Positions 977 to 63,701 of a stretch of DNA of 64,000 bases are shown here, one piece after another. The position numbers and the translations under genes were made by a program. Each line of letters opens with the position of its first letter. Within the stretch, counting starts at the first letter, position 1. Location of the stretch: positions 186,001 to 250,000 of the forward strand of contig JAALGY010000039.1 in the NCBI GenBank assembly GCA_032358165.1, given 5' to 3'. The DNA comes from Diplosphaera chodatii. Lineage: Eukaryota; Chlorophyta; Trebouxiophyceae; Prasiolales; Stichococcaceae. The notes under the pieces are model-generated. The model saw only the letters and a program-made list of their open reading frames with translations. It made no database searches and had not been told where the DNA came from.

Positions 977-2195
977 ATGCCGCGCGGTGCGCTGTCAGCC
1001 ACCATGTCACTTGGCAGGCACGCAGCAGCTCTGACATGCTGCGATTCAGTTGATCCGCAGCGGAGGTCGTCATGCCGCGCCCTGCCCTTGTGTCAGCTCC
1101 CGCTGCGCCCGCTGCAGGCCCGCCATGCTGCAGCCGCCCGCAGAGCTCTCAGCATAACGGCACACCCAGTGCACGTGAGCTGTGCTAAAGTCTTACTGCA
1201 CAAGGATCCGCATTCTCCAGTACCAGTTGCTGCGGCAGACATCTGGATGTCACCACACCTTCTGGCCTGCTCACAGACATGCCGCAGCACGCTGGTCAGA
1301 TGTGCGGCAGCGGCAGCTGAGCAGCCAGAGCAGCCGGATCTGCCCCCGGATCAAGGACCCAGGAAGCGGTGCCTGCGGTGCGGCGAGCAGCGCACGCTGT
1401 TCTACTTCCCGCTGCGCACGTCCCAGCCGGATGGCCGCTGGGTGCACTGCTACGCCTGCCAGCACGAGCTGTGGCTGCAAGCCAAGCCGCCCAGGCGGTG
1501 CGCGGCTGCTGCCCCTCACGCACTCAAGCGCAATGCCCAGAATTTTCTTCATGTTTCACATTGTGTTCCACTGCATGCCAGCCTCTACCCTCTGCCGCAC
1601 AAATTAACAGGCAGTGCTTTGCAATGACGACTGTTGTTGTGTTCCGCACCTCTCCACAGACGCATCGTGACATGCTGCCAAGAAGCGCGTCAGCGCTGCA
1701 CGCATGTCGCGCAGGCTGAACGACAACGAGCATCCACCGACACAGCAGCCGCAAATATGCGTCAGGTGCCGCAACCCCCTGGCGGCGAGGTGGTTTCGCC
1801 CCATCCCCCAAAACGTGTCAGGGCTGGACACCTCCTGCCTGGCCTGCCGCGCGAAGCAGGCTCGTGGCTATCGGCGCATCGAACGGCAGCCGCCGCAGCA
1901 TAAGGAGTGCCGGGTGTGCCGCGAGACCCTGGCAGCGGCGTGCTTCAGCCGGAAGAATAGCTCGGCTGATGGGCTGCAGCATGCTTGCAAAGGCTGCACC
2001 AAGGCCTACAACAAAACCCGCAGGCCCCTGGTCCAAGTGGAGGTGCCAGCCAAGTGGTGCTGCAGATGCAAACAGGAGAAGCCCGCTGCCGATTTTCACC
2101 CAGATCGGCGGTCTGTGGACGACCTCAGGAGCACATGCAAAGACTGCAATCGCCTCATGATGAGTCAGCGGCGGCGGCGCCAGCGGCAGCAATAG
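977..2195 (+). CDS. ZR1: four-module zinc-ribbon protein, 3 exons
   Basis: Exons 977-1174, 1277-1497 and 1715-2195 give 299 residues; introns are phase 0 (102 nt) and phase 2 (217 nt). Exon 1 (residues 1-66) starts at an MPRGALSA methionine shared with ZR2 and ZR3 and is Cys/Arg-rich. Four modules of C-x2-C-x22-C-x2-C follow with cysteines at about 98/101/124/127, 155/158/181/184, 205/208/231/234 and 255/258/281/284. Each module also has an aromatic residue and a DG-type turn. Such CxxC...F...DGL...CKxC ribbons are known at the N-termini of many phage and bacterial HNH or recombination endonuclease VII-like proteins, but no nuclease motif follows here. A nucleic-acid or protein-binding role is inference. 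The tail is Arg/Gln-rich and ends just before CAG-rich DNA. Intron 1 is a multiple of three without a stop, so retaining it would keep the frame. Confidence 0.8.
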
Positions 2196-3410
2196 CAGCA
2201 ACAACAGCGCAGTAGCAGCGCAGCACTCAGCAAGAGCATCATCTGCACAGGTGATGCAGCACGCTTCTGCATGCTGCACACATGCTGTGGGCGGACGCTC
2301 TTTCTGTAACGAGTCATTGGTCTGTAGCTGTGCTGGGTGCTGCCGTGAGCGCCATTAACCTGGATGCGACCAACCGCTATCAGATTGTGTTGTGTCACCT
2401 GATTGCAGAGAGCGGTGGTCCATTTCTCATGGGCAGTGCACAACATCCGATTCACCCGCCGCTGTTGACAGCAGCACTCCAGGTGTATGCATCGCTGGCT
2501 GTGCAACCCGTGACTCACAAATGCGTCGAGCTGTTGTATATGCCTTGCGCATAGACCCTGTGCCTCCTGGGAGCCCGCTGCCCGACAACACGATCAGCAA
2601 TGCTGTACAGCCATATGTGGTGCTGCATAAAGCCCTGCCGCACGCACAGCACGCCGTGCAAGAGTCTTGTGGCCCTCTGCTGACAGGCAGCCGGCCGCCA
2701 GCGCCCAGCAGAGGCAACGGCTTCACCTGCCTCAGGACGCATCGGGCCTGCCCCTACCTGGCGTGGGCTCCCTTCGAGCACATCAGACTTTTAGGCATGT
2801 GGCGGCGCCCGGCCAGCCAGCGGCGTGCAGCGGTGGCAGCCTGCGTTGCGGCAGGCGGCGGTGCTGGCAGCTGGGGCGTCTGCTGGGTGACGGCGGCTGC
2901 GGCTTGGCGCATGCCCCTCTGTAGGCAGGGTGTGAGGACACGGCCACTCCATCCGATGGGACAGTGACAAGCTGCAGCGACAATGCTGGCTACTTCGCGA
3001 CGACAGCACAGCCTAGCATGCCAGCTGGCGCCAGAGTCAATGGGGTCGCGGCAGCGGCAGCCCCCTCTCCCACCACGTCTGCCATGCCGGTGGCACCACA
3101 GCCAATACCATCAGGGTGACACGACAGACTGCTGGCTTGACACTTTCGACAATCTGGAGCATTGCATGTCAGCCGCATTCTGGACGACTGGAACACACAG
3201 CATGTCAGCACTGCTGTGCACATGAGTCTAAGTCTTCAGTACCGGATCAGAGCGCTGTTCGCCGCCATCACAAGCTTGACTGATGTTAGACATTCTGCTG
3301 CATCCAGATAGCAGTACGAGTGTCAGCACAGTGGAACAGATGCAAACGAGCCTAGGCTTGCTCGGTGCTGTCATGTTGCGAGCACCTGGCCGGCTGCACC
3401 CGGCCTCGAG
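2196..3410 (+). other. Spacer between ZR1 and ZR2
   Basis: The spacer begins with CAG-rich DNA and is collinear with 4948-6192 and 7742-8972. About 2810-2900 may hold a degenerate transporter C-terminal exon (RLLGDGG motif compared with RLRRDGG in the clearer copy near 11430). A GCCAGCTGGCGCCA palindrome lies near 3020. I see no intact gene. Confidence 0.5.
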
Positions 3411-3445
3411 GCATCCGACGCTTGGCCTCCCTGCTTCCAGCAGCC
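3411..3445 (+). promoter_or_regulatory. Conserved upstream element of ZR2
   Basis: Copy 2 of the element, reading GCATCCGACGCTTGGCCTCC and continuing into CTGCTTCCAGCAGCC. It starts 337 bp before the ZR2 ATG. Confidence 0.5.
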
Positions 3446-3747
3446 GTGGTGGATTTGCCTGCAGGAAGGGCTTGCAGAGGAAAGCAGAATCTGCACACTC
3501 CGCTTGCACACTGGCACAACAGTGTGTCAGCAGTGCTGAGCGTGCGGACAACGCTGCTGCTGAGATGCTGCACTGTCACTGCAGCACTGTGATCGCCGCA
3601 GCTAGCGCAGAGACTCCTTGAGGGCTCCTGACCAGCATCGAGTACCTCGGCTGCTGGCTGGGTTGCAACACGGTGGCAGAAGCGCTTGACACACCTGGTG
3701 CCACATTTGGTCGCCGACTGGTCAGCGCGTTGCGGCCATTTAGCCCG

Positions 3748-4947
3748 ATGCCGCGCGGTGCGCTGTCAGCCGCCATGCTGCTTGGCAGACACGCAGCAGC
3801 TCTGACATGCTGTAGCTTAGCTGGCCCGCAGCAGAGGTCGTCATGCCGCGCCCTGCCCCGCTGTCAGCTCCCATTGCGCCCGCTGCAGGCCCGCCATGCT
3901 GCAGCCGCCCGCACAGCTCTCAGCATAACGGCACACCCAGTGCAGGTGAGCTGTGCTAAAGTCTTACTGCACAAGGATCCGCATTCTCCAGTAACAGTTG
4001 TTGCGGCAGACGTCTGGATGTCACCACGCCTCCTGGCCTGCTCACAGACATGCCGCATAACATTGGTCAGATGTGCGGCAGCGGCAGCTGAGCAGCCGGA
4101 GCAGCCGGATCTGCCGCCGGATCAAGGACCCAGGAAGCGGTGCCTGCGGTGCGGTGAGCAGCGCACGCTGTTCTACTTCCCGCTGCGCACGTCCCAGCCG
4201 GATGGCCGCTGGGTGCACTGCTACGCCTGCCAGCACGAGCTGCGGCTGCAAGCCAAGCCGCCCAGGCGGTGCGCAGCTGCATTTCCACTACACACTGAAG
4301 GGCAGTAGTTAGATTCACGCTGCACGTCCAATCACCAGGTGATCTGCCGTGTTCCACTGCATGCCAGCCTGTATCCTCTGCTGCGCAGATCAGCTGTTGT
4401 TGTGTCCTGCACATCTCGAGACACATCGTGACATGACGCCCAGCAGCACGTCAGCGCTGCACGCATGTCGCGCAGGCTGAACGACAACGAGCATCCACCA
4501 ACACGACAGCCGCAGACGTGCGTCAGGTGCCGCAACCCCCTGGCGGCGAGGTGGTTTCGCCCCGCCCCCCAGAACGTGTCTGGGCGGGACACCTCCTGCC
4601 TTGCCTGCCGCGCGAAGCAGGCTCGCGGCAATCGGCGCATCGAACGGCAGCCGCCGCAGCAGAAGGAGTGCCCAGTCTGCCGTGAGACCCTGGCAGCAGC
4701 ATGCTTCGGCCGGATAAATAGCTCAGCTGATGGGCTGCATCACGCCTGCAAAAGCTGCCTCAAGGCCTACAATCAGACCCGCAAACAGCCCCTGGTCCAA
4801 GTGGAGGTGCCATGCAAGCGCTGCTGCAAGTGCAAGGTGGAGAAGCCCGCTGCCGAATTTCACCCAGATCGGCGGTCTGTGGATGGCCTCACGAGCACAT
4901 GCAAAGTTTGCGATCGCCTCCAGCGGCGGCAGCAGCGGCAGCAATAG
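3748..4947 (+). CDS. ZR2: four-module zinc-ribbon protein, 3 exons
   Basis: Exons 3748-3945, 4048-4268 and 4476-4947 give 296 residues. All 16 module cysteines are present. The donor AGGCG|GTGCGC and acceptor GCGCAG|GCTGAAC of intron 2 match ZR1. It is very close to ZR1 through exon 3, with silent and conservative changes. Module 3 reads CPVCRETLAAACFGR where ZR1 reads CRVCRETLAAACFSR. The stop follows an RRQQRQQ tail. There is no lesion, so this is an intact copy. Confidence 0.8.
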
Positions 4948-6529: not shown

Positions 6530-7741
6530 ATGCCGCGCGGTGCGCTGTCAGCCGCCATGCCACCTGGCAGGCACGCAGCAGCTCTGACATGCTGCAGCTC
6601 AGCTGCCATGCGGCAGACGCCGTCGTGCCGCGCCTTGCATCGCTGTCAGCTGCCGCTGCGCCCGCTGCAGACCCGCCATGCTGCAGCCGCCCGCAGAGCT
6701 CTCAGCATAACGGCACACCCAGTGCAGGTGAGCTGTGCTAAAGTCTTACTGCACAAGGATCCGCATTCTCCAGTAACAGCTGTTGCGGCAGGCAACTGGA
6801 TGTCACCACGCCTTCTGGCCTGCTCACAGACATGCCGCAGCACGCTGGTCAGATGTGCAGCAGCGGCAGCTGAGCAGCCAGGGCAGCCGGATCTGCTGCC
6901 AGAGGAGGGACCCAGGAAGCGGTGCCTGCGGTGCGGTGAGCAGCGCACGCTGTTCTACTTCCCGCTGCGCACCTCGCAGCCGGATGGCCGCTGGGTGCAC
7001 TGCTACGCCTGCCAGCACGACCAGCGGCTGCAAGCCAAGCCACCTAGGCGGTGCGCGGCTGCTTCCCACCACAAACTCAACGGCAATACCCTCAATCCAT
7101 GCTGCACATCCAAGCACCAGGCGATCTGCCTGCATGCCAGCCTCTACCCTCTACTGCATAGATCAACAGGCAGTGCTGTGCAGCGGCAACTGCTGTTGTG
7201 TTTCGCACCGCTCGAGAACGCATCGTGACATGCTGCCAAGCAGCGCGCTGCACGCACACTGCGCAGGCTGACCGACGATGAGCATCCACCGACACGAGAG
7301 GCGCAGGCCTGCGTCAGGTGTGGCAACCTCCTGGCGGCGAGATGGTTCCGTCCCACCCGCCAAAACGTGTCTGGGCGGGACACCTCCTGCCTGGCTTGCC
7401 GCGCGAAGCAGAGGCGCGGCTATCGGCACAGCGAGCGGCAGCCGCCGCAGCATAAGGAGTGCCCAGTCTGCCTTGAGACCCTGGCAGCGACATGTTTCAA
7501 CCGGAAGAATAGCTCGGCTGATGGGCTGCACCACGCTTGCAAAGGCTGCATGAAGGCCTACCACAAGGCCCGCAAACAGCCTCTGGTCCAAGTGGAGGTG
7601 CCATGCAAACGCTGCTGCAAGTGCAAGGTGGAGAATGCCGCTGCCGAATCCCATCCCAATCGGCGATTTGTGGACGGCCTCAGCGGTAGATGTAAAGGTT
7701 GCGATCGCCTCATTTTGAGTCAGCGGCGGCAGCAACGGTAG
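6530..7741 (+). CDS. ZR3: four-module zinc-ribbon protein, 3 exons
   Basis: Exons 6530-6727, 6830-7050 and 7267-7741 give 297 residues in an open frame. Cysteines are complete in all four modules. The conserved Phe of module 4 (AAEF in ZR2) is Ser here (AAES), and the KP before it is NA, so this ribbon has lost its usual hydrophobic core residue although its zinc ligands remain. The N-terminal exon keeps the MPRGALSA start of ZR1 and ZR2. Confidence 0.78.
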
Positions 7742-9330: not shown

Positions 9331-10671
9331 ATGCCGTGCGGTGCACTGCCGGCGGCCATGTCACTTGGCAGGCACGCAGCAGCTCCGACATGGTGCAGCG
9401 GGGCTTCCACGCAGCAGAGGCCGTCATGTCGCGCCGTGCCTTGCTGTCAGCTGCCGCTGCGCCCACAGCAGCCCCGCGGGCCGCCACATGCTGCAGCCGC
9501 CCACAGAGCTCCCAGCTTGACGACACGCTCGATGCAGGTGAGCTACGCTATCTTGCTAGTGCAGAAGGATCAGCATTCTCTGGTGGCAGTTGTTGCGGCA
9601 GGCATCTGGATGTTACCCCACCTTCTAGCCAGCCCGCAGGGATGCCGCTTCACGCTTGTCAGATGTGCGGCAGCGTCAGATGAGCAGCCAGAGCAGCAGG
9701 AGCTGCTGCCAGACCAGGGACCCACGAAGCGGTGCCTGCGGTGCGGTGACAGGCGCACGCTGTTCTACTTTCCAGTGCGCAAGTCGCAGCCGGACGGCTG
9801 GGTGCACTGCTACGCTTGCCGATACGAGCAGCGGCTGGAAGCCAAGCCGCCAAGACGGTGCGCATCATGCTTCTGTTTGCAAAGGTTCAAAGGCTTCGGA
9901 CCTTGCGGGCAATCGGTAAAGCAGTGTAAACCAGGCAGTATGCTTGCTAGTGTGCATGGTTTGCAGTGCTGAGTATCCACTGTCTGTCCTACTGCCAGCA
10001 TGCCGTACCCTCACACTTGGGCGTGCTGTGTGTGTTGCACAGGTTGGGCAACCATGAGTACCCACCGACAGGCGAGCCGCAGGTCTGCAAGCAGTGCCAA
10101 AAGCCCCTGCCGGCGAGGTGGTTCTACCTGCAGCCCGAAAACTACAGTGGCCGAATGGGCAGCTGCCTGGCATGCCGCGCAAAGGCACAGCGTGCCAACA
10201 GCCAGAGAGCGGCACATTCCTCGGCAGAAGGAGTGCCGCCAGTGCCAGCGCACTTTGGAAGCAGCGCGCTTCAGCCGCAAAGCGAGCCACTCTGACGGCC
10301 TGGAGGGCATTTGCAAGGAGTGCGCAAGCACTCAGGTCAGAGACCACAAGCAGGCGCTCATTCAGGTAGTGGTGCCAAGCAAGCGCTGCTGCGGCTGCGG
10401 CGTGGAGAAGCCCGCTGCCAGCTTTTCAGCAGCTCCACGAAGGGTGGATGGTCTCGACGCAATGTGCAAGGAGTGCAAGGCCCGGCGCCTCCGTGCATCG
10501 AGGCGGCAGCAACAGACGGCCATGCAAGGTGAAGCCGTAGCAGCAGTCCGCACAAATGCAGTGCCATGTGCCAAACTGCTGTGCATCTATGTGAGGGCGT
10601 CTCTCAAACCTTATGTGCATGATCGTCCCACCTTGCCCTGTGTATTGTTGTACTACTGTACTGGTACATGA
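9331..10671 (+). pseudogene. ZR4: zinc-ribbon copy with a 2-nt frameshift in exon 3
   Basis: Exons 9331-9537, 9640-9857 and 10043 onward. Exons 1-2 and module 2 are open. At about 10204-10209 the copy reads CAGAGAGCGGCAC where ZR10 reads CAGAGAGAGCGGCAC, a loss of one GA that shifts the frame between modules 2 and 3. Modules 3 and 4 remain perfectly readable in the other frame to a stop at 10669-10671, so the lesion is young. As written, the product would end at 10295 with only two modules. A sequencing error in the GA run is the main alternative. Its 3' half resembles ZR6 and ZR7 rather than ZR1-ZR3, and its exon 1 resembles ZR1-ZR3, so it marks the border between two array types. Confidence 0.7.
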
Positions 10672-10692
10672 GTGTTGCTTCTGCGCCTTGCA

Positions 10693-12203: not shown

Positions 12204-13390
12204 ATGCTCGGCAGCCTGTACCCAACGCTGCAAACGCTTCGCAGCCATGCGTGTACCCGGCAGAAGCCGCAGTACTGCACTGCGCGCCGCTGCCATCAGC
12301 TCTGTCAGCACCCGCGGCAGAGCTGCAGCCTGTCGCATGCTGCGCCTCGCCAGGGGGCGCCTCACACGCGGGAGTGCCGCTTGCAGGTGAGCATTGTGAG
12401 ACTGCAGTGCGTACTGCATGAGACGTCACGGCATGCAATGGGTGTCACCATGTGGCGATGCCTGCTTGCAGGGCGGCGACACTAGACTGGTCAGATGTGC
12501 GGCAGCACTCGATGAGCAGCTAGAGCAGCCAGGGCAAGTGCCCGAAAAGCGGTGCCTGCGCTGCGGCGACAGGCGCACGCTGTTCTACTTCCCGCTGCGC
12601 ACATCTCAGCCAGATGGCCACTGGGTGCACTGCTACGCCTGCCAGCATGAGCTGCGGCTGGAAGCCAAGCCGCCGAGGCGGTGCGCATAGCATCGCTGGT
12701 CATGTTGCTTGCTGCTGCTTCCGACAGTTTGGCCAACGACCGTGTGTTCAGTGGATGGGCTGCTAGCGTGCACCATGTATGCCGCTCCTCAGTTGCAGCA
12801 AAGAGGAGGTATGTGCTGACTGCCTTGTTGCTGTCTCGATGTACCCCGGTGTGCAACCTGATGCCAGCCAATTCTCGTACAGGCCGGGCAACGATGAACA
12901 TCCACCCTCGCGGGAGCCACAGGTCTGCAGCACCTGCCATATACCTTTGCCGGCGAGGTGGTTTGGGCTGGATCCCATAAAACTGACCGGCCGCCACGGC
13001 AAGTGCATGCCATGCTGTGCGGCGGCAAAGCGCAAGCTCAGCGCCAGGCAACCGCAGCCGCCCCAGCAAAAGCGGTGCTACAAGTGCGAGCAAACCCTGG
13101 ATGCAGCATGCTTCCACCGTCAGCGGCAGTCCACTGATGGGCTGCGCCCTCTGTGCAAACTCTGCACAAGCGCCGCTGCTAAGAGCCGCAAACAGGCTCT
13201 CGTCCGCGTTGAGGTGGCCGAAAAACGTTGCTGGAGGTGTGACGAAGTCAAGCTTGCAGCCGAGTTTTGGCCCAATCAGCGGGGTGTGGATGGACTGGCA
13301 GCTGAATGCAAGGAGTGCGATATCTGCCACAAAAAAGCAGCGCGACAGAAAAGGCAGCAGCAGCGGAGGCAGCAGCAGCAGCAGCAATAG
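12204..13390 (+). CDS. ZR5: four-module zinc-ribbon protein, 3 exons
   Basis: Exons 12204-12386, 12472-12680 and 12883-13390 give 299 residues. Exon 1 is of a second type, starting MLGSLYPTLQTL, with Cys/His at CTRQKPQYC...CHQLC...C...H...C, which could form an extra metal site. Exon 2 is 12 nt shorter than in ZR1. Modules 3 and 4 read CYKCEQTLDAACFHR and CWRCDEVKLAAEFWP. The C-terminus runs into an in-frame CAG/CGG tract encoding polyglutamine and stops at 13388-13390 inside it. ZR8 is its closest relative. Confidence 0.8.
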
Positions 13391-15419: not shown

Positions 15420-16816
15420 ATGCTGAGTAGGCTGTTTCCAGCAGGGCTGGCATGTGGCGGCCAGCGCAGCCCGCTGAGCAGGTCGCACTGCCGCGCCATG
15501 CGCCGCCACCAGCTGTTGGTCCCCCCACAGCAGCCCTGCAGCGGGCCACAGCATGCTGCCTGCCACGATGCACGGCACATGAGGCAGCGCCTCGTGGAGG
15601 TGGATCAGGGCTTTGATGCTGGCTCATCCCATGTTCCGACTGGCTGTGGGCGGCGTGCAAGTGCTTGCATCCTATCTCATGCCATCGCCTCTCGCAGGGA
15701 CGCTGCAGTGAGTCAACCAGCTGTGCGGCAGCAGCATCAGTTGACCAGCTAGAGCAGCAGGAGCTGCTGCCAGAGCAGGGACCCACGAAGCGGTGCCTGC
15801 GCTGCGGCGACAGGCGCACGCTGTTCTACTTCCCGCTGCGCAAATCTCAGCCAGACGGCTGGGTGCACTGCTGTGCCTGCCAATACGAGCAGTGGCAGGA
15901 AGTCAGGCCGCACAGGCGGTGCGCACAATGTTCGCTGCTATGCGATTGGTCTCGACTGCCACATGCAACGTGCACGTGATGCAGTCAATACTGAAATACC
16001 CACAATGAATGAGTTGATCATGTGCTGGCGTGCACCCTGGTGTTGCAGCAATTGTCATGAGCTGTCCGCCTGTATGCTCCTTGCTCTACACCCTGAGGTC
16101 TTGCAATCAGCAGCCATACTGCTGGGTGCATGCGATGCAGGCTGCAGAATGATGAGAACCCACCGACAGGAGAGCCGCAGGTCTGCAAGAAGTGCCATGC
16201 ACCCCTGCCGGCGAGGTGGTTCGCGCTGCAGCCCCAGAACATAAGCGGCCGCTGGGGCAGCTGCCTGGCGTGCCGTCTGGCATATCAGCGCGCACTCAGC
16301 TGCAGGAAGCACCAAACGCCTCAGCAGAAGGAGTGCCGGCGGTGCCGTCGGACCCAGGCTGCAGCTTGCTTCTCCCGCAAGAGCACCTCTCCTGACGGGC
16401 TGCAGGGCATATGCAAAGGGTGCGCAAGCACTCAGGTCCGAGACCACAAGCAGGCGCTCATCCAGGTGGCGGTGCCAAGCAAGCGTTGCTGCGAATGCGG
16501 CGTGGAGAAGCCCGCTGCCAGCTTCTCAGCAGCTCCACGAACAGTGGATGGTCTCGAAGCAGCGTGCAAGGAGTGCAAGGTCCGCCACATACAAGCAGCG
16601 CGACAAAAAAGGCAGCAGCAGCGGCAGCAGCAGCAGCCAACAGCACTGCCACACGAAGCAGCAGACACCAACCACAGAGGTGCAGAGCCATGTGCCATGC
16701 CCACCTACCGTGGATGTGTCATGGTAGCATCTATCCACTGCGGTGTGCACAGCTGTCTCACTGTGCCTCCTGCACTACTTTGCATCCGGCTGAGCGTGTG
16801 GTCCGACTGCAGATGA
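15420..16816 (+). CDS. ZR6: four-module zinc-ribbon protein with a long C-terminal tail
   Basis: Exons 15420-15599, 15698-15918 and 16141-16816 give 358 residues. Exon 1 starts MLSRLFPAGLACGG and carries the MRRHQLLVPPQQ block shared by ZR7, ZR9 and ZR12. The intron 1 donor is the weak GTGGATC, where ZR9 has GTGATCA and ZR7 has GTGAGAG, so splicing may be less efficient. After module 4 (CCECGVEKPAASF...CKEC) a KRQQQRQQQQP tract leads into about 55 extra residues, because the stop inside the CAG tract of ZR5 is absent. The extension includes several Cys (PCAMPTYRGCVM, VHSCLTVPPALLC). Whether it is translated or removed by splicing is open. Confidence 0.72.
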
Positions 16817-18647: not shown

Positions 18648-19847
18648 ATGCTGAGCAGACTGTACTCAGCATGGCTGGCATGTGGCGGCCACCGCAGCCC
18701 GCTGAGCAGGCCGCACTGCCGCGTCATGCGGCACCATCAGCTGTTGGTCCCCCCACAGCAGACCAGCGGGCCACAGCATGGCCCCGGCCACGATGCACGG
18801 TACTCGAGGCAGCGCTGCGTGCAGGTGAGAGGGCTCTGATGTTGGCTGATCCCGTGTTCCAATCGGACGTGGGCGGCGTGCAAGTGCTCTCGTTCGATCA
18901 CATCTCATCGCCTCTCGCAGGGACGCTGCAGTGAGTCACTCAGCTGTGCGGCAGCAGCAGCAGCTGAGCAGCCGGAGCAGCAGGAGCTGCTGCCAGACCA
19001 GGGACCCACGAAGCGGTGCCTGCGCTGCGGCGACAGGCGCACGCTGTTCTACTTCCCAGTCCGCAAGTCTCAGACAGACGGCTGGGTGCCTGCTGTGCCT
19101 GCCAATACGAGCAGCGGCAGGAAGTCAGGCCGCCAAGGCGGTGCGCATAGTGTTTGCTGCTTTGCGATTGATCTCGACTGCCACATGCAGCGTGCACGTG
19201 ATGCAGTCAATACTGAAATACCCAACAATGCATGAGTTGATCATGTGCTGGCGTGCACCCTGGTGTTGCAGCAATTGTCATGAGCTGTCCGCCTGTATGC
19301 TCCTTGCTCTACACCCTGAGGTTTTGCAATCAGCAGCCGTACTGCTGGGTGCATGCGATGCAGGCTGAAGAACGATGAGTACCCACCGACAGGAGAGCCG
19401 CAGGTCTGCAAGAAGTGCCATGCACCCCTGCCGGCGAGGTGGTTCGCGCTGCATCCCCAAAACATAACCGGCCGCTGGGGCAGCTGCTTGGCATGCCGTG
19501 CGGCACAACAGCGCGCGTTTAGCCGCAGGGAGCACCACTCGCCTCAGCAGAAGGAGTGCCGGCGGTGCCGTCGGACCCTGGCTGCGACTTGCTTCTCCCG
19601 CCGGAGCAGCTCTCCTGACGGGCTGCAGGGCATATGCAAAGGGTGCGCAAGCACTCAGGTCAGAGACCACAAGCAGGCACTCATCCAGGTGGTGGTGCCA
19701 AGCAAGCGTTGCTGCGACTGTGGCGTGGAGAAGCCAGCTGCCAGCTTCTATGAAGCTCCACGAAAGGTGGATGGTCTCGCCACTCAGTGCAAGGAGTGCA
19801 ACCGCCGGCGCGGCTCTGAGGCGAGGCAACAGCAGCGGGCGGCATGA
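18648..19847 (+). pseudogene. ZR7: zinc-ribbon copy with a 1-nt deletion in exon 2
   Basis: Exons 18648-18824, 18921-19140 and 19374-19847. Exon 2 is 220 nt against 221 in ZR6. At about 19089 it reads TGGGTGCCTGCTG where ZR6 reads TGGGTGCACTGCTG, a loss of one base. This destroys the second Cys pair of module 1 and shifts everything after it. Exon 3 with modules 2-4 is still fully open (ends ARQQQRAA), so the lesion is young or a sequencing error. Exon 1 is intact and ZR6-like, but QQPC is changed to QQTS. Confidence 0.7.
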
Positions 19848-21475: not shown

Positions 21476-22624
21476 ATGCTCGGCAGCCTGTACCCAACGC
21501 TGCAAACGCTTCGCAGCCATGCATGCACCCGGCAGAAGCCGCAGTGCTGCATGGCGCCCCGCCACCATCAGCTCTGTCCGCACCCGCGGCAGAGCTGTAG
21601 CCTGTCGCATGCTGCGCCTCGCCAGGGGGCGCCTCACGCGCGGCAGTGCCGCCTGCAGGTGAGCACTGTAAGACTGCAGTGCGTACTGCATCAGACGTCA
21701 CGGCACGCAATGGGTGTCACCATGGGCCAATGCCTGCCTGCAGATCGGCGACAATAGACTGGTCAGATGTGCGGCAGCACCCAGCGAGCAGCTAGAGCAG
21801 CCACAACAAGGACCCGAAAAGCGGTGCCTGCGCTGCGGCGACAGGCGCACGCTGTTCTACTTCCCGCTGCGCAAATCTCAGCCAGATGGCCACTGGGTGC
21901 ACTGCTACGCCTGCCAGCATGAGCTGCGGCTCGAAGCCAAGCCGCCGAGGCGGTGCGCATAGCATCGCTGATCATGTTGCTTGCTGCTGCATCCGACAGT
22001 TTGGCCAAAGACCGTGTGTTCAGTGAGTGGGCTGCCAGCGTGCACCATGTATGCCACTCTTCAGTTGCAGCAAAGAGGAGGTATGTGCTGACTGCCTTGA
22101 CGCTGTCTCGACGTACCCTGGTGTGCAACCTGATGCCAGCCATCTCTCGTGCAGGCCGGGCGATGATGAACATCCACCCTCGCGGGAGCCGCAGGTCTGC
22201 AGCACCTGCCATAAACCTCTGCCGGCGAGGTGGTTTGGGCTAAATCCCAGAAACCTGAGCGGCCGCAAGGGCAGCTGCATGCCATGCCGTGCGGCGGCAA
22301 GGCGCAAGCTCAGCGCCAGGCAACCGCAGCCGCCCCAGCAGAAGCGGTGCTACAAGTGCGAGCAAACCCTGGATGCAGCATGCTTCCACCGTCAGCGGAA
22401 GTCCGCTGATGGGCTATGTCCTCTGTGCAAACTCTGCAAAAGCGCTGCTGCCAAGAGCCGCAAACAGGCGCTCATCCATGTGGAGGTGCCCGAGAAACGC
22501 TGCTGGAGGTGTAACAGAGTCAGGCCCGCTGCCGAGTTCTGGCCCAATCAGCTGCGTGTGGATGGACTAACAGAGGAATGCAAGGAGTGCAAGGTCCGCC
22601 ACGTACAAGCAGCGCGACAGAAAA

Positions 22625-22661
<37 letters not shown>

Positions 22662-22839
22662 AATAGCACTGCCACACGAAGCAGCAGACACCAACCACAG
22701 AGGTGCAGAGCCGTGTGCCATGCCCACCTACCGTGGATGTGTCATGGTAGCATCTATCCACTGCGGTGTGCACAGCTGTCTCACTGTGCCTCCTGCACTA
22801 CTTTGCATCCGGCTGAGCGTGTGGTCCGACTGCAGATGA
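21476..22839 (+). CDS. ZR8: four-module zinc-ribbon protein, mosaic of ZR5 and ZR6
   Basis: Exons 21476-21658, 21744-21952 and 22155-22839 give 358 residues. From the N-terminus through module 4 it follows ZR5 (MLGSLYPTLQTL start, 209-nt exon 2, CYKCEQTLDAACFHR). From KECKVRHVQAARQ onward it follows ZR6, including the long Cys-containing tail ending in LSVWSDCR. Between them lies an in-frame pure (CAG) run (22627-22661) encoding about 12 glutamines. The change of affinity next to the CAG tract suggests gene conversion or unequal crossing-over there. Confidence 0.78.
22627..22661 (+). repeat. (CAG)n microsatellite, in frame, polyglutamine
   Basis: About eleven uninterrupted CAG units lie inside ZR8 exon 3. 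The equivalent place is CAG/CGG-rich but shorter or interrupted in ZR5 and ZR6. Confidence 0.9.
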
Positions 22840-26235: not shown

Positions 26236-26239
26236 ATGG

Positions 26240-29572: not shown

Positions 29573-29574
<2 letters not shown>
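28418..29574 (+). CDS. ZR10: four-module zinc-ribbon protein, longest exon 1
   Basis: Exons 28418-28630, 28719-28936 and 29124-29574 give 293 residues. Exon 1 has 71 codons, about ten more than its relatives, with the extra segment (LQRAAQPNSRQC) just before the donor. Module 1 is slightly divergent (CLKCGDERTLYFFPARQSHA). Exon 3 is nearly identical to ZR4, without its frameshift, through module 3. It stops right after module 4 (CKGCMRLH), so there is no Gln tail and the (CAG) run falls outside the frame. Intact. Confidence 0.8.
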
Positions 29575-46000: not shown

Positions 46001-47729
46001 TGCCAACAGCCACATTTCAGGGTTCAAGCTCTGGTGCCTGCTCCCGACTTGAACAGAGACGACAGCTGCACGCTGTGGGCCCCAACGTCTCTAGCAGCTG
46101 TGCAGCTGCATGGTGCTTGCCGGAGTGCAGCGTGTTGCTGTGCCTAGGTGTACGCGTACGGCGGCTCGGCGCTGCAGGCGGCGCTGCTGCGGCTGTTTGT
46201 GCGGTGCGAGGCGGTGCTGCCGGGGCTGTGGGTCGGCACCCTCACCCGCGAGAGCATCATCGGTGCGACCAATTGCTGTTCAGCCCCGGCTCCATCATAG
46301 GTTCAGCTGCAGCCGCCGCTGCAGAGGCACTCTGCAAATGTGTGGCTGTTGTTGGCTGCTGCCTCGTGCAGTTCCACACTTCTGTGCACACTTGCATGCA
46401 CATTACGCGCACAGAGCTGGGTTCTATTTATTGAACTCTACATGTATCTAGGCGCACTGCGGCGGGGCCTGCGAGCGGAGGATCTGATTGGGTACATGCG
46501 GGAGCGGGCGCACCCCAGGGTGGCCACCCGCACCCCCATCGTCCCCGAGGTGCCCCACACAAGCTCATGCTGATTTGCTGCCTGAAGCTGCCCTACCTAG
46601 CAGAAAGAATTGCTCATTCAAGCACCATCTCTGCATTAGCCCGTCGCCTCAGCAGCTGGCACTGCGAAGTTTTCAATGGTGGTATGCTACAGCAGCTGCG
46701 GCAGCAAAGCTGGCATCACTTCATTGCTTGCTTTCCTCGACACACCGGTGGCGGGTCCGGCAGCTGCAGTGCCGCTGTCAACAGCTGTGTTGCCGGCAGG
46801 TGGCGTGCTGCATGCAACCGCCGCCTCTGGGCACCCTTTCACCCCATCGGCAGCCAGTGCAGTCCTGTTGCCGTCGCCGCTGCCGCCGGCGCCAGCACCA
46901 GCAGCCGCTGAAGTGGGGTCGGGCAGCGCGGCAGTGGTGCCCGTAGTGAAGTGCATGACTGGGGCTGCAGGTGGTGTCGGACCAGGTCCAGCTGTGGCAG
47001 GCGGACGCGCAGCCTAAAACCCTAAACCCTAAACCCTGGCTGCAGGTGGTGTCGGACCAGGTGCGGCTGTGGCAGGCGGACACGCAGCGGGTGCGCGCGA
47101 CGCCGGCGGTGCTGTACAGCAGCTTCGAGAGCGCCGGCCTGTGGGCGGGCACTAACGAGAGGGCCAAGCAGCTGGGGGCGCACCTGTGGGAGGCGCCGCC
47201 CCGCGCCGCAGGTGTGGCTCACAGCTCGCGGTGCACTACAGCATACATGTTTCAAACCAGAAGCGGTTTGACTGCAGGGTGGCCGAGTAGCTGGCCCGCA
47301 CCTTTAGGAGGCGCCGCCCGGCGCCACCAGCGCATGCTGCATGCTGTGGAGCACCACTGCCCGCTGCATGAATGCCCCCGACCCATCACACAGCACTGCA
47401 GAGCATGCTGCGCACCCGCCCTGCAACCGTGCCCCTGTTGCCTGTCGTAGCCGGGCTAGGGTCAGGCAGCAGCCATCACCCTGGAACCCTGGTATCCTGA
47501 AGATGAACCGGGGGCACATCCAGCAGCACACTTGCGCTTGTCCTCAACTGCTGTCTGCCTCAGTCCCCTGCCATGTGCAGCAGCCGCGGACAATTGACGG
47601 CTGTGGGACACCTGCATTTGCGCAGGCTCCGATGGCACGCCGGCCTTCAGTGGCGCCCTCGTGAGCCAGGCGGCCACGCACGCCGACCTGCGGGACCACA
47701 TCCGGGCGCTGAAGGCGAAGGGCGTCTGA
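43059..47729 (+). CDS. TFB2: TFIIH core subunit p52 (TFB2 / GTF2H4)
   Basis: Thirteen exons (43059-43124, 43396-43486, 43643-43728, 43898-43980, 44190-44314, 44529-44620, 44936-45071, 45285-45429, 45715-45850, 46148-46262, 46452-46549, 47046-47211, 47626-47729) splice in frame to 480 residues; the human protein has 462. Diagnostic blocks in order are FLEALPAAQLDSVYD, RALPPLAQLYVARLLLP, LDAFVQRQWEGLLLYLA, ITQSGYAFLLRGPHEQLWAL, DLAAAVGFLLQLGF, TIIVETNYRVYAY, GLRAEDLIGYMRERAHP and DQVRLWQADTQRVR. p52 anchors and stimulates the XPB helicase in TFIIH for transcription initiation and nucleotide-excision repair in the nucleus. The intron after exon 8 appears to use a GC donor (TTCAG|GCGCGC). Exon 12 has two candidate acceptors 75 nt apart. 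Confidence 0.92.
46971..47093 (+). repeat. Duplicated start of TFB2 exon 12 around an interstitial telomere repeat
   Basis: The segment GCTGCAG plus codons VVSDQVxLWQADxQ occurs at 46971 and again at 47046. Between the copies is CCTAAAACCCTAAACCCTAA-type DNA (47013-47037), about three CCCTAAA telomeric units. The insert is 75 nt, so using the upstream acceptor would add 25 residues (including PKTLNPKPWLQ) without a stop. Confidence 0.85.
47280..47330 (+). repeat. Degenerate copy of the TFB2 exon 12 end
   Basis: GGCCGAGTAGCTGG...CGCACCTTTAGGAGGCGCCG repeats 47161-47210 (GGCCAAGCAGCTGG...CGCACCTGTGGGAGGCGCCG) about 119 bp downstream, inside intron 12. Confidence 0.7.
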
Positions 47730-48891: not shown

Positions 48892-49987
48892 CTATACTCT
48901 CACTCCCTGCTGCTCTGACGGCTGCTGCTGCTGCTGCTGTCGTCGCCTGCTGCAACTCTCGCAGTCCTTGCACCGGAAGCCAAGACCATCCACATTCCGC
49001 TGTCTTTTGTGGAACGCGGAAGCAGGCTTAGCCAATTTGCACAAGCGGCACAGCTTGAGCGGCACCTCCACCTGGGTGAGAGGCTGCTTGTAGCCTTTCA
49101 TGTTTTCATTGTGGCATTCTCTGCAGTGGCCGGTGAGGCCGTCGACATAAGCATCATTGCGATGAAAGCAGCCTGCTGCCAGCACTTGCTGGCACTGCCG
49201 ACACTGCTTCAGCTGAGGGACCTGCCGCTTGATGCGCCGTCTTTTGCGATGTTCCTTGGCACGGCACGCCAGGCAGGCGCCGTCGCGGCCGCTCTTCTTG
49301 GCAGGCGACAGCTTGAACCACCCCGCCGGCAGGGGTTCACGACATTTGCTGCAGACTTGTGGGTCTTGCGTCGGCGGATGCTCGTCGCTGTTCCGCCCTC
49401 TAGGCGGCCTGACCTTCAGCCGGTGCTCGTACTGGCAGGCGCAGCAGTGCACCCAGTGGCCGTCCGGCTGAGACTTGCGCACTGGGAAGTAGAAGAGCGT
49501 GCGCTCGTTCCCGCAGCGCAGGCACCGCTTCCTGGGTCCTTCCCATGGCCTCGGCTCCGGCTGCTCGGCCGGCGCTGCTGCTGCACATTTGGCGGGTGCA
49601 CTGCGGGATACCTATGAACAACAACGAACAATGTGGAATGGTCCAAAGGATCCGTTGCATACCGCGGACGCACGCCGCATAGGGTTGCTTCACAGTGGCA
49701 CCCAGCAGTGCATGTACCGTGGGAAGCCCCTGTCATGACAGTGGGGGCGATCAAGCAGATGCTAGCGTGGCCCTCTGGTCTCACGAACCGACCGTGGTAG
49801 TGCTCACCTGCCCAGAGCGCTGCAGGTGATGCAGAGCGCTGCGGTGATGGAGCGTGCTGTGCGGCCCGCAGGTCTGCTGTGAGCGGAGCAACAGCTGATG
49901 GCGACGGATGGGGCAGCAAAACGGCAGGTGGTGCGTGCACACAGGGCTGCCAGCTGCCAGCACTTCTTTGACAGGGCTTATGAGCAT
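48892..49987 (-). CDS. ZR13: four-module zinc-ribbon protein, intron 2 absent
   Basis: Two exons, 49987-49808 and 49611-48892, give 299 residues. Exon 1 starts MLISPVKEVLAAG and carries IRRHQLLLRSQQTCG. The acceptor at 49612 (TCATAG) gives exactly the 24 nt before the CAAAA motif that the other copies have. The former exon 2/exon 3 junction reads straight through as VRPPRGRNSDEHPPTQDPQV, where all other copies are interrupted after PPR by a 143-233 nt phase-2 intron. All 16 Cys are intact; modules 2-4 start CSKCREPLPAGWF, CRQCQQVLAAGCF and CRLCKLAKPASAF. The C-terminus is RRRQQQQQQPSEQQ. Confidence 0.82.
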
Positions 49988-52111: not shown

Positions 52112-53404
52112 TCATCGCTTGCGGCGGCTAGCGCAGTCCTTGCACTGGCCACGGAGGCCATCCACTTTCTGCCGGTCCTTGCTAAAAGCAGAAGCAGGCT
52201 TGACCAGTTTGCACTGGAAGCACCGCTTTTCCGGCACATCCACCTGGGTGAGAGGCTGCTTGAAACTCTTAAAGCGAACGCTTTGGCATTCTCTGCAGAT
52301 GCTGGTGAGGCCGTCGACATTGGCATTCTCGCGAGAGAAGCAGCCTGCTGCCAGCACCCGCTGGCACTGCCGACACGGCTTCTGCTGAGGGATCTGCCGC
52401 TTGAGGTGCTTTCTCTTGCGATGTTCCTTGGCACGGCATGCCAGGCAGGTGCTGTCACGGCCGCTCTTCTTAGCAGGCCTCAGCGTGAACCATCCCGCCG
52501 GCAGGGGTTCATGGCACTTGCTGCAGACTTGTGGGTCTAGCGCTGGCGGATACTCGCCATCGTCCAGCCTGTGCAGCATGCACGCAGCACTGATGCGTTG
52601 ATGGGCATGGACGCTTGCAAATACCAAGCATACGCAGATATGACAAGCATAGGAGGGCACTTTAGGTCTGGCAGGTGTCGTGTGATGTCACCCGCTCGCA
52701 GAGCATCAGCCCAGCCTTGTCCAGTGTTTATATCTGCTGCTCTTACTGTCTGCAATTGATAGATTGACGGTGCTTTGCGCACCGTCTTGGCGGCCTGGCT
52801 TTCTGCCCCAGCTGGTATTGGCAGGCATAGCAGTGCACCCAGTGGCCGCCTGGCTGAGACTTGCGCACTGGGAAGTAGAAGAGCGTGCGCTCGTTCCCGC
52901 AGCGCGAGCACCGCTTCCTGGGTCCTTCCCATGGCTGCGGCTCCGGCTGCTCGGCCGGCGCTGCTGCACACGTTGTGGGCGCAGCGCGGGGGCCCTACAT
53001 CAGGTGACGAACCATGCGATATGCCCCGATCTATCGTTGCATGCTGTGGTTGCGTGCCATCGAAGGCTGCTGACGAGCAAAACTCACCACCCAGCAATGC
53101 GACCGTCGTGGACAGCCGCCGTTATCAACAAAGGATGACCAAAGGATGATATGCACATGCCGGTCGTGCCCCGTGCACCGTTCCACATTGGGCTGGGCTC
53201 CCGACCAGACACAGCTGTGCTCACCTCCCGAAAATGCTGCAGCTGATGCAGAGCGCTGCGGCGAGGCGTGGTATGGGGCCGTCTGCAGGTCTGGTATGAC
53301 CGCAGCAACGGCTGATGCCGGTGCATGGGACAGCTATGCAGCAGATGCAGCGTGCACACATGCCCGCCAGCTGCCAGACCTCCTAGCACTGTGCCGCTGA
53401 GCAT
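52112..53404 (-). CDS. ZR14: four-module zinc-ribbon protein, short C-terminus
   Basis: Exons 53404-53225, 52994-52783 and 52568-52112 give 282 residues. The 230-nt intron 1 is the longest and its acceptor is ATGTAG. Exon 1 starts MLSGTVLGGLAAGG with the RHQPLLRSYQTC block. In module 1 the turn is PGG instead of PDG. Modules 2-4 (CSKCHEPLPAGWF, CRQCQRVLAAGCF, CFQCKLVKPASAF) place it with ZR13 and ZR16. It stops at RRKR just before a CTG/CAG run (52083-52107), so it has no Gln tail. Intact. Confidence 0.8.
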
Positions 53405-54840: not shown

Positions 54841-54859
54841 CCGCTCACATGCCGACAGG

Positions 54860-55928: not shown

Positions 55929-57316
55929 TCAACTGCCCGTCAGGCTGCAAGACGCCAGCAGCACACGCGGGCAATGTGGATGATTCGACGCAGCTGCCCA
56001 CAAGACGGTGATGCGCATGCACAGCGAGCACGTGTGAGCATGTGGCAAACGTGGCACCTGTGCAGTGGTGCCTGCTGCTTCGTGATGTGCTGCCTCCGAA
56101 TGTTGCTTGCTTCCATGCTTGCTGCCTGCTGCTCGTGCTGCCGCTCGCGTTGCTGAGATTGACCTGTTGACGCACTCCTTGCACGTGAACGCCAGGCCAT
56201 CGACAGATGGCCGGCAAGGAGAGAACCCGGCAGGCGGCTTCATCAGCCCGCAGTTCCAGCAGCGCTTGCTCGACACCGCTACCCGGGTCAGCGCCTGCTT
56301 GCGCCCCCTGTTGTAGCCCAGCTGGCAGTCCTTGCAGCGGCTGAACAGCCCGTCCTTGTAGCTCTCGTCGCGGTGGAAGCACGCTGCCGGCCGCATCTGC
56401 TGGCAACGCGAGCAGCGTTTCTGCCCTGCCGTGTGCCTGCTCTGGCTCCTGCGCACACGCCACAGGTCCGCACAGCACGCCATGCAGGTGCTCTTGCGGC
56501 CGCCCGGCCTGGCGGGCACCAAGTGGAACCACCTTGCGGGCAGCGTGCTGCGGCAGCGGTTGCAGAGCTGCGCCTCCTGCGTCGGCGCGTTTTCACCTTC
56601 GTTCAGCCTGCGCGGGAGGTGGGTGCCACTGAGCTGCCGATCGGCACTGCCTTTGCACATCGTGAGCATGTGGAGGCGACGGCAAGGCAGACCTGCTGTA
56701 CAGGCGGGCCAGCAGGCGCATGCAAGCAGGACATCGGGGTGGGCACTGCTACACACTGCGTACTGCCGCACTCAAGGCCGCGTGCGCTTGTATGCAGCAC
56801 GCAACACGGAACCCTGCGCACCCTCTCGGCGGTTTGACTTCCAGCCGCAGGTCGTGCTGGCAGGCGTAGCAGTGCACCCAGCCGTCCGGATGAGACTTGC
56901 GCACAGGGAAGTAGAACAGCGTGCGCCTGTCACCGCACCGCAGGCACCGCTTGGTGGGTCCTTGATCTGGCAGCAGCTCCTGCTGCTCTGGCTGCTCACT
57001 CACTCCTGCCGCCGCACATCTGAGCCACGCAGTACAGCCTCCCTGCCAGCAGGTGAGGACTTGAGGTGAAACCAATTGTGTGCCACCCCTGGCTGGTCAC
57101 GAGGGATTGGGTGAGACAGCAGCAGAGCGCTGTCACCTGCACAAAGCGCTGCTGCGTCTGTCGTGCAAGAAGGCGCAGGGCGTGACGTGGCCAGCTGCAG
57201 GTCTGCTGTGGGCGGAGAATCAGCTGATTGACGGGCATGGTGCGGCATTGCGGCCTCTGCAGCATGCACACACCGCCTCGAGATGCCAGCGCTGTTGCAC
57301 GCAGGCTGGTCAACAT
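55929..57316 (-). CDS. ZR15: four-module zinc-ribbon protein with a long tail
   Basis: Exons 57316-57137, 57042-56822 and 56607-55929 give 359 residues. Exon 1 starts MLTSLRATALASRGG. The exon 2 end is AGAGG|GTGCGC, making the junction residue Gly. Modules 2-4 are divergent (CNRCRSTLPARWF, CSRCQQMRPAACF, CWNCGLMKPPAGF), and module 2 has two adjacent Cys before its last pair member (CMACC). Behind module 4 come an Ala/Arg segment (SISATRAAARAAGSKHG) and about 60 residues with scattered Cys. The tail may be partly non-coding in reality. Confidence 0.75.
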
Positions 57317-59479: not shown

Positions 59480-59486
59480 TTATGAA

Positions 59487-59520
<34 letters not shown>

Positions 59521-60651
59521 GCCGCTGCCGCCGCCTTTGCTTGTCGAGGAGTGTGCAGTCCTTGCACAGAGCGCTGAGACCGTCAACAGTCAGCTGCCTG
59601 CTGTAGAAGTTGGTGGCGGGCTGGACCACGGTGCAGAGCACACACAGCTTGTCCGGCACATCCACTTGGGTGCGAGGCCCCCTGTAAGCCTTCCGGTCAT
59701 CACTTGTGCATTCTCTGCACATGCCGCTGAGCCCGTCAACACTGGAAGCGTAGCGGTGGTAGCACGCTGCGCCCAGCACCCGCTGGCACTGTCGACACTG
59801 CTTTTGCTGAGGGATCTGCCGCTGGACCTGCTGTCTGATGCGGCTTGCCTGTGCATTGCATGCCAGGCAGACGCTGTCGCGGCCACGCTTTCTGGCAGGC
59901 CTCAGCTTGAACCACCCCGCCGGCAGGGGCTCATGACATTTGCTGCAGACTTGTGGGTCTTGCGTCGGCGGATGCTCGTCGTTGCCCAGCCTGCAGCACA
60001 TGCATGCAGCATCAAGATGTTGAAGGCGTGACGCAATCATGTAGCAAGCAAACGGCATCATAGCAGGGCAGACAGCTCTGGACGCTGTCGCACAAGGTGC
60101 CCACTAGCAGGCCACCAGCTGAGCTTGCGGCTGGGCGGTGCATGCAAAGTGGTCGCCAGGTCTGCCAATAACCAACAGCGAGCCCATGCGCACTGTCTTG
60201 GCGGCTTGGCTTGCAGTCCCAGCTGGTATTGGCAGGCGTAGCAGTGCACCCAGCCGTCCGGCCGCGACTTGCGCACAGGGAAGTAGAACAGGGTGCGCTC
60301 GTTCCCACAGCGCAGGCACCGCTTCCTGGGTCCCTGTCCTGGCTGCAGCTCTGGCGGCTCAGCCGGTGCTGCTGCACATGTGAGCAGCGCAGTGTGGCGT
60401 CCCTGTGAGCAGGCAGGCGGGATCAGCCCACAGCGCCCATAGCGCCATCCACTGTCACCCACAGCGGGCACGTCCGCAGCGCTGCTCACCGGCGCCGACA
60501 ATCGTCTGGCAATCACGGCGCCACCATAAAGTGGAGCGAGATGCATGCTGCATGTTGGCGCCGGTCGATGCACGGTCGAATGGCGCTGTGGCCGCTGCAG
60601 TGTGCCTGATGTGCTGCTGCACATTGGCAACGCATGCAAGCTAGCCGCCAT
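59480..60651 (-). CDS. ZR16: four-module zinc-ribbon protein with a polyglutamine end
   Basis: Exons 60651-60490, 60402-60194 and 59990-59480 give 293 residues. Exon 1 is the shortest and most divergent (MAASLHALPMCSSTSG). The junction codon of exon 2 gives Gln (AGACA|GTGCGC). Modules: CLRCGNERTLFYF, CSKCHEPLPAGWF, CRQCQRVLGAACYHR (Phe changed to Tyr), CVLCTVVQPATNF. In the module 2-3 linker ACNAQASRIRQQVQRQ replaces the usual ACRAKEHRKR. All 16 zinc-ligand Cys are kept. Confidence 0.78.
59484..59518 (+). repeat. (CTG)n microsatellite, in-frame polyglutamine of ZR16
   Basis: About eleven CTG units on the plus strand encode the RRQQQQQQQQQQRS end of ZR16 on the minus strand. Confidence 0.88.
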
Positions 60652-61720: not shown

Positions 61721-61799
61721 GGTTGCAGCTGTGTCCAGCCGCGTGAGACAAATGCCCACCTGCAACTACAATGAGACAGCAAAATCAGTTTCGAGATGC

Positions 61800-62559
61800 A
61801 CAGCAGGTGCTGGCAGCATGGATTGGTGCTTATCTAGGTGGCGCAACAAACCCAAGCATGGTGCGATGCGGACGCCAACACTTGGCGCTGGCAACGAGCG
61901 GCATGCTTACCAACCAAACACTAAACACAGCCGACATCGCATCATCAAATCCAAGGCCCAACCCGCGCTCAGGGCCCCACCATGTCGGGGGTTCCTAATT
62001 GCGTTCTCAAGTTGAAGGGCTCCACGCACTGAAAAGCAATGCGCCTCCCGCTGGGATGGGCCAGCAACGTTGGCAGCATGCGCCTGCCAGCTGTTCGCCA
62101 CTGGATGAGCAGAATCACATCTGCGGTTTGCCGCACACAATAGTCAGAAAGCCCACAAGGCACGAAGTAGTGCCAGCTGGCGCCAGGACGTCACGTCTGT
62201 TGTGGGTCAGGGCAGTGCAGCATGAGTAGCAAGGCAGGGTGTGCACCTGCATTGGGTCCAGGTGCATTGCAACATGCCTCGCTGCAGCTGTCGTGCAGCT
62301 GCGGTCTCACGTTGCGTCTCCTGCCTGGCGTGGACGAAAAACCGACGTCGCAGCACATGCGCTCCTGCAGTGCATCACCCGCAACAGGCCGGCGTTGATC
62401 CGTGAATGTTGGAATCTGACAGACGAGCGCAAGGCACGATGGAGGGGAGTGTGCACTCCCTTTTCAGCAGATGCATGCCCAGCCACACAACAGAATAGCA
62501 TGTGTGCACAACATGGCAGGCACCTGTGCAAGTTGGTCCTGCTGCTGAGGCTTGCGTTG
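61800..62559. other. Spacer downstream of ZR17
   Basis: A CCAGCTGGCGCCAG palindrome occurs near 62173, as in other spacers. No gene is supported. Confidence 0.35.
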
Positions 62560-63701
62560 CTACCGGCTGCCACCGCCGCTGCTGCTGCTCAACGGCATTT
62601 TAGTGCACTCCTTGCACGCCGTGGCAAGACCATCCGAACTGAGTCGGTTGCTGTAGAAGGCAGCAGCAGGCTTGACTGCCTTGCACTGCCAGCAGCGCTT
62701 GTCCTGTACCTCTACTCGGACGAGGGCCTGCTTTCGGTCCTTGTTTGTGGTGTATTCGCATTCCTTGCACGTGCCAAAGAGGCCGTCAACATTCCGCCCT
62801 GTTCTCCGGAAGCACCCTGCTTCCAGGGACCGCCGGCACCGGCGGCACTCCTTCCGCCGAGGCGTGTGCCGCGCGGTGCGGGTGTAGCCGCGAAACTTGT
62901 CCGAGCGGCACGCCAAGCAACTGCCCTCCCGGCCAGTCAGGTTCAATGGCTTCAGGTAAAACCACCTCGCCGGCAGGGGCTCGTGACACTTCTTGCAGAC
63001 CTGCGGCTCTCCCGTCGGCGGGTGCTCGTGTTGCTGCAGCCTGCGCAGCATGCGTTCAGCACGGCTGATCATACGTACCTCAGATGAACAGCAGAAGACT
63101 CTGTGCAAGCCCAGCGCTGCACAGGCTGTAGACTGTCAAGCACATATTTGTTTATCATCGCCTGCACACACGGACGACAACGCTCTTGAATCAGCAGCCA
63201 CCAGCGAACCGTGCACCGTCTCTGCGGCCTGACTTCCAGCCGCTGCTCGTACCGGCAGTCATGGCAGTGCACCCAGTGGCCGTCTGGCTGAGCTGCGCGG
63301 ATCGGAAAATACCGCAGCGCGCGCCTGTCGCCGCACCGCAGGCACTGCTTCACGGCTTCCTGCCCTGGCTGCCCGTCTGGCTGCTCAGGTGCGGCCGCAG
63401 CACACTCTGCCACTGCCGCGCGGCCATCCTGCAGGCCAGCGGTAGGCGGGGTGTGCCCTGAGCCGTCGCTGGTGTGGCCTTGACGTTTGCCTGACGAGGG
63501 GGCCCGTTGCGCAGCTGCGCTCACCTGCGTTGCGTGACACCCTGCGGTTGAGGGCTTCTGGCGGGGATCGCGCAACGATATGCTGGATGGCTGTGGTCTG
63601 TGCGCCACCTGCTGGCGGCGCATGGGGCAGCGTTGCGGCCGCTGCAGCCTGCCTACGTGGCTGCCAGCCGCCAGGGCCGTCAATGGCATGCTGCCTGACA
63701 T
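62560..63701 (-). CDS. ZR17: four-module zinc-ribbon protein, most divergent copy
   Basis: Exons 63701-63525, 63428-63217 and 63040-62560 give 289 residues. The start MSGSMPLTAL was chosen because it puts MRRQQ at the same distance (26 residues) as MRRHQ in ZR6; the inner Met (63689) is possible. Module 1 is unusual (CLRCGDRRALRYFPIRAAQP, second pair CHDC). Modules 2-4 read CKKCHEPLPARWF, CRRCRRSLEAGCF and CWQCKAVKPAAAF. The C-terminus is Ser/Gly-rich (PLSSSSGGGSR) instead of Gln-rich. Intact. Confidence 0.78.

Follow-up and report, generated by a model that had tools for sequence, protein, structure and literature searches.

What kind of protein does the repeated gene of this locus encode, and does the array look as though it still serves its host? 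The window, i.e., the whole stretch of 64,000 nucleotides analysed here (C33:186001-250000; G+C ∼61%), comes from a genome of 85.6 Mb in 55 contigs and was originally predicted to carry 17 paralogs with four zinc-binding modules each, belonging to no nameable family.

Gene model and extent of the array

Regular-expression scanning and profile searches detected 17 copies of the zinc-module gene in the window, in agreement with the predicted number. Twelve lie on the forward strand, with exon-1 starts from 1004 to 34328, and five on the reverse strand (63701 to 49987). The two arms converge, and between them (44.5-47.2 kb) lies TFB2 (TFIIH p52; 44511..47201, forward strand), whose exons were mapped in part; it was identified by Tfb2_C (E 2.3e-12) and Tfb2 (E 6.4e-10), both above their cut-offs, with another Tfb2 match (E 2.7e-7) below. 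The limits previously given for the array, 977 and 63701, fit the genes, the former being an in-frame ATG nine codons upstream of the start adopted for the first copy (g01) and the latter the start of the last (g17). However, the array has about double the length originally described: 32 copies occupy 163.5-283.5 kb of C33 (∼120 kb), on both sides of TFB2, with one additional weak fragment near 157 kb, and lower-scoring, diverged relatives were found on C10, C22, C49 and other contigs, and on C13, where they form a second cluster (3.01-3.16 Mb).

The general organization of the gene is as follows. Exon 1 (54-71 codons in all 17 window copies) has a GTGAGC-like donor in phase 0. Module 1 is encoded by exon 2, whose donor is in phase 2 and is mostly GTGCGC, and modules 2-4 by exon 3, together with a tail that is mostly Q/R-rich. 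Each protein would thus comprise an acid-poor leader followed by one Cys4 module from exon 2 and three from exon 3 (4 + 12 Cys), the four modules originally proposed.

The open copies of the forward arm are g01 (exons 1004-1174, 1277-1497 and 1715-2195; 290 aa), g02 (3775..4947; exons 3775-3945, 4048-4268 and 4476-4947), g03 (6557..7741; exons 6557-6727, 6830-7050 and 7267-7741), g05 (12204..13390; exons 12204-12386, 12472-12680 and 12883-13390), g06 (15420..16816; exons 15420-15599, with donor GTGGAT, 15698-15918 and 16141-16816), g08 (21476..22839; exons 21476-21658, 21744-21952 and 22155-22839), g09 (24663..25955; exons 24663-24845, with donor GTGATC, 24943-25163 and 25307-25955), g10 (28418..29574; exons 28418-28630, 28719-28936 and 29124-29574) and g11 (31261..32522; exons 31261-31431, 31525-31745 and 31952-32522). 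Three forward copies are broken. A frameshift in exon 3 of g04 (9358..10671; exons 9358-9537, 9640-9857 and from 10043) places modules 3-4 in another frame. In g07 (18648..19847; exon 1 18648-18824) the frameshift lies within the module of exon 2 (from 18921), and exon 3 (19364-19847) is open. In g12 (34328..35524; exon 1 34328-34507) an in-frame stop between the usual acceptor and the module breaks exon 2, and the exon-3 modules (35018-35446) are open.

All copies of the reverse arm are open: g13 (48892..49987; exon 1 49808-49987, fused exon 2+3 48892-49611; 299 aa), g14 (52112..53404; exons 53225-53404, 52783-52994 and 52112-52568), g15 (55929..57316; exons 57137-57316, with donor GTGACA, 56822-57042 and 55929-56607), g16 (59480..60651; exons 60490-60651, 60194-60402 and 59480-59990) and g17 (62560..63701; exons 63525-63701, 63217-63428 and 62560-63040). 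In 14 of the 17 copies the joined exons therefore form a single open frame through the four modules, and these 14 keep all 16 ligand cysteines, as the original prediction of at least 14 such copies had it. Its statement that all copies have three exons holds for the others but fails for g13, which has two: intron 2 is absent exactly at the splice sites of the other copies, and the spliced gene model thereby gains independent support.

Sequence identity follows the exons. Among the 17 copies, mean pairwise identity was 0.53 in exon 1, 0.76 in exon 2 and 0.64 in the exon-3 modules, versus 0.43 and 0.33 in the two introns (intron 2 in 120 of 136 pairs) and 0.36 in the downstream DNA. Other repeated genes travelling with the unit were considered and rejected, since similarity outside the zinc gene is common to few copies. 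Nine long ORFs outside the zinc genes carried no Pfam domain, no Rfam family scored as high as its cut-off, and no tandem repeat with a period of up to 500 scored 150. In the genome as a whole, chlorophyll a/b-binding matches occurred at 56 places, which marks the host as a photosynthetic, probably green, eukaryote.

Selection on the metal sites and the partner contig

The metal sites are under strong selection, as had been proposed. In the rows whose exon 3 is complete and open (29 of the 32 copies on C33 and one of the four on C50), a choice that favours kept ligands, exon-3 ligand codons specify Cys in 359 of 360 cases (329 TGC, 30 TGT and 1 AGC), and pN/pS, which stands at 0.62 in the other columns, drops to 0.005 in the Cys columns, far below 1. 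The exon-2 ligand codons of 30 rows specify Cys without exception (120/120). A codon model gave an omega of 0.366 (0.436 in our own fit). Site by site, 63 of 144 positions were purifying at nominal p<0.05, including 8 of the 12 Cys sites, and none was under significant positive selection, in a test of limited power run with our own script on a tree that ignores gene conversion. The suggestion that the proteins bind a fast-evolving partner is thus not supported, within the limited power of that test. Between copies, modules in the same position are 0.54-0.59 identical and those in different positions 0.28-0.41, which indicates duplication of entire multi-module genes, not shuffling of modules.

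The partner region on C50, whose flanks match at ∼69-95% and whose TFB2 exons are 88-98% identical to those of C33, presents a very different picture, with zinc-gene sequences at four places versus the 32 copies on C33. Only the copy at 1182 kb has both exon 2 and exon 3 open. The remaining three carry in-frame stops or a shift or lack their first part, and ligand Cys are missing from two of them. No further copy on C50 was found among the best 150 of 153 candidates, the stretch C50:1190-1210 kb being unread. The two contigs together make a clear case of gene-cluster birth and death.

Such decay, together with the three broken copies of the window and the occurrence of the modules in phage and giant-virus nucleases, would be expected if the array were the debris of a spreading selfish or viral endonuclease gene with no role in the host. 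This reading is very unlikely, however, given the full open exon 3 in 29 of 32 C33 copies, the omega of 0.37 with its many purifying sites, the greater conservation of exons than of introns, and the precise absence of the g13 intron at its splice sites. The array is functional-looking.

Relatives of the modules and their predicted fold

The original prediction had likened the single module to those at the N-termini of phage HNH or endonuclease VII proteins, and this kinship stood up in profile comparisons. Aligned with P0020, an endonuclease VII protein, the exon-3 alignment A1 gave an hhalign probability of 97.5 (E 6.6e-12; 128 columns, 30% identity), its three modules being co-linear with the three that precede the P0020 nuclease. 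The phrog_5558 profile (130 positions, about two modules) matched all three proteins compared (E 5e-24, 4e-20 and 2e-22). Both P0016 and P0020 end in a nuclease domain, and one relative has two modules fused to the WhiB transcription factor. P0020 also showed a weak match, under the cut-off, to PF18275 (His_Me_b4a2; E 0.0056), a family absent from the eight Pfam families with a match in any of 29 exon-3 rows at E 0.1.

In agreement with the original claim that a nuclease domain is lacking, none was found in the array proteins: PF02945 gave no match at E 10 in four chains read to the stop codon, nor at E 0.1 in the 29 exon-3 rows, whose sequence stops at the last module. A search of the whole genome was empty as well, but carries no weight, since the control genomes gave nothing either. 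When the active site was mapped onto the modules following a published account (PMC3765158), the active-site pair [DEGQHN]H at +8 to +21 was present in 3 of 90 exon-3 modules (a single His in 29 of 90), an N or H at +30 in 4 of 60 testable modules, and a loop His plus N/H in 1 of 60. Judged by their sequence, the proteins have not kept the HNH active-site residues.

Other searches yielded no family name, likewise as predicted, with weak matches only in Pfam and NCBIfam and chance-level matches in sequence searches of solved structures (PDB). The best NCBIfam match, to a decaheme cytochrome model (E 8.3e-4; 2 of 29 rows), was taken as a chance effect of CxxC and rejected as an identity. Single-sequence phmmer searches of 5.8 billion proteins detected no relative, and alignments alone found some (5 proteins, then 23). 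No named family with this four-module arrangement was encountered in Pfam, NCBIfam, PDB sequences or, at the level of listings, the literature.

In structure models, each module is predicted to adopt a treble-clef (beta4-alpha2) zinc fold, the chain being a repetition of such hairpin-plus-helix modules; the earlier label of zinc ribbon was right about a zinc module and is corrected as to the fold, which is predicted not to be a plain ribbon. The best solved-structure match of a module, a middling one, was the first zinc repeat of Hpy99I. Named viral proteins at the top of the fold matches were 'Zn-finger' and HNH proteins of Pithovirus and other giant viruses (E down to 1.1e-12), including a 141-residue 'Zn-finger protein' (E 1.4e-11), followed in the same list by phage endonucleases. 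Identity in the top six viral matches was 24-29%, and their TM-scores were low (0.21-0.32 by query). Since viral and GTDB contigs scanned with one copy gave no relative, the closeness to giant viruses rests on these fold matches.

Counted by distinct proteins, Stc1 (2luy) came second in the Foldseek matches (E 0.01), and its Pfam profile (PF12898) matched 7 of 29 exon-3 rows at E 0.1 (best E 5.7e-4). The tandem zinc finger of Stc1 is said to recruit partners between RNAi and chromatin factors, and the array proteins could similarly be adaptors whose tandem modules recruit protein partners in the nucleus or cytosol; the Q- and R-rich C-terminal tails would fit a nuclear protein. We regard this as rather unlikely. 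The profile cut-off is 24.8 bits, whereas member 1 reaches 14.1 and even P0018, whose E is stronger (6.4e-5), reaches 23.9; the MCR model of Pfam, among other zinc/CxxC models, is about as weak (5 of 29 rows; best E 7.6e-4). The sequence kinship to endonuclease VII N-termini is stronger, and the relatives are fused to DNA-acting domains. The strong positive charge of exon 3 (net +9 to +21 in each of the 30 rows) and the acid-poor leader ahead of the modules also argue against adaptors.

The same basic modules, together with the WhiB fusion, would suit sequence-specific DNA-binding regulators in the nucleus, the expansion having given rise to many such regulators. Each treble clef would then read DNA in the manner of GATA-type fingers, which belong to the same general fold class. 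Against this reading, which is improbable, stand the exon-1 leader and the result that Pfam gave no recognised DNA-binding family in the four chains and 29 exon-3 rows.

Proposed function and comparison with known systems

The leader exon is present in 26 of the 29 C33 copies examined. In 25 of these 26 leaders (one near-identical copy was omitted), exon 1 contains 1.1% D+E, versus 2.3-5.6% in the other five frames, and has a mean net charge of +7.3. At most one acidic residue occurs in the first 57 in 16 of 17 window copies versus 177 of 613 control starts, and the combination with a net charge of at least +6 in 13 of 17 versus 92 of 613; the window copies are related, and the comparison is therefore a hint rather than a test. 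Organelle leaders are typically acid-poor, and the composition of exon 1 hints at a cleavable leader of this kind.

We propose, with a probability of roughly one half, that the array encodes a lineage-amplified, four-module protein family akin to the N-termini of endonuclease VII but lacking the nuclease, and that its members bind DNA or RNA, possibly in an organelle. Each module would fold round a single zinc bound by two CxxC pairs, with a helix beginning at the second pair. The strongly basic modules and linkers would let the protein lie along DNA or RNA, and mark, protect or position it without cutting; because exon 3 is basic and the HNH residues appear lost, a binder is indicated rather than a cutter. 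The most variable non-ligand positions (mean over modules 2-4, counted from the first Cys) are +13, +15, +25 and +23; those at the end of the hairpin (+13, +15) and just before the second CxxC (+23 to +25) may let paralogs differ in target. The leader would be cleaved, and the protein may act in the plastid or the mitochondrion, the least certain step of the proposal. Nucleic-acid binding, already suggested in the original prediction, stays an inference, strengthened by the charge and by the DNA-acting domains of the relatives.

A bolder version is doubtful: that in a photosynthetic lineage the DNA-docking N-terminal part of a phage-type endonuclease became a large, diversifying set of organelle-directed nucleic-acid binders, a zinc counterpart of PPR/OPR proteins with targets set by a few repeated positions. 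If paralogs do bind different nucleic acids, the 29 copies with open exon 3 and their repeated variable positions would be well suited to learning how a zinc module of this kind selects its targets and how parts of nucleases turn into binding proteins. Phage and giant-virus nucleases are known to carry the module; a eukaryotic, module-only nuclear gene family with a leader and 32 tandem copies was not found described.

Among known systems, Hpy99I consists of two beta4-alpha2 repeats, in agreement with the Pfam name of PF18275; the array proteins have no catalytic repeat. According to a published account, the N-terminal part of Hpy99I binds DNA, and a one-module HNH protein with a Cys4 site of this kind binds DNA weakly (PMC3765158). 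Endonuclease VII proteins (PF02945; phrog_1035; P0020) share the tandem N-terminal Cys4 modules, three of them co-linear; in P0016 and P0020 the nuclease domain comes last, whereas the algal chain ends after its Q/R-rich tail, and the algal genes add a fourth module and a leader in front. The phrog_5558 proteins, termed 'Lar-like restriction alleviation' by library label, are encoded by phage genes and have fewer modules. Stc1 has a tandem Cys4 zinc fold, to which the match is weak in both profile and structure, and the array proteins differ in having four modules. The Pithovirus and other giant-virus proteins resemble them in fold, but are products of viral genes rather than of a host array. 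By analogy only, the array recalls the nucleus-encoded OPR/NCL and PPR families, repeat proteins that are directed to organelles and include tandem duplicates, as outlined in two reports (PMC8635915, PMC13126933). In contrast to these alpha-solenoids of helical repeats, the array proteins are predicted to be built of zinc modules.

Paired contigs and zinc-gene copies on the partner contig

In a whole-genome search of the assembly (G000), several of the chlorophyll a/b-binding (LHC) genes were found as near-equal-scoring pairs on different contigs, and contig comparison revealed 69-98% identity between contig C50 and the part of contig C33 represented by the window. Owing to the separate location of the LHC pairs and the similarity of C50 to its C33 counterpart, the assembly probably contains two diverged subgenomes or haplotypes. 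Four copies of the four-module zinc gene are also retained on the partner contig (C50, positions 1179506-1185946), and three of these four are broken; among the broken copies, those at 1179 and 1185 kb show loss of ligand (metal-site) cysteines.

Arrangement and possible exchange within the array

The inverted arms of the array are centred on TFB2 (TFIIH p52; window 44511-47201). The tails encoded at the 3' ends of copies g06 (16580-16816) and g08 (22590-22839) are nearly identical, although the rest of both genes is divergent, a sequence pattern which suggests recent gene conversion or unequal exchange between them. In copy g13, intron 2 is missing with exact boundaries from the fused exon 2+3 (48892-49611), a pattern resembling the outcome of recombination between the gene and a spliced cDNA.

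Relatives outside the array

A second cluster, composed of diverged relatives (loci L024-L028), is located on contig C13 of the assembly (3015001-3165000). In several of its units a module-1-like exon comes first, and additional modules occupy separate exons. The database protein P0019 comprises a WhiB domain fused to two modules of the array type.
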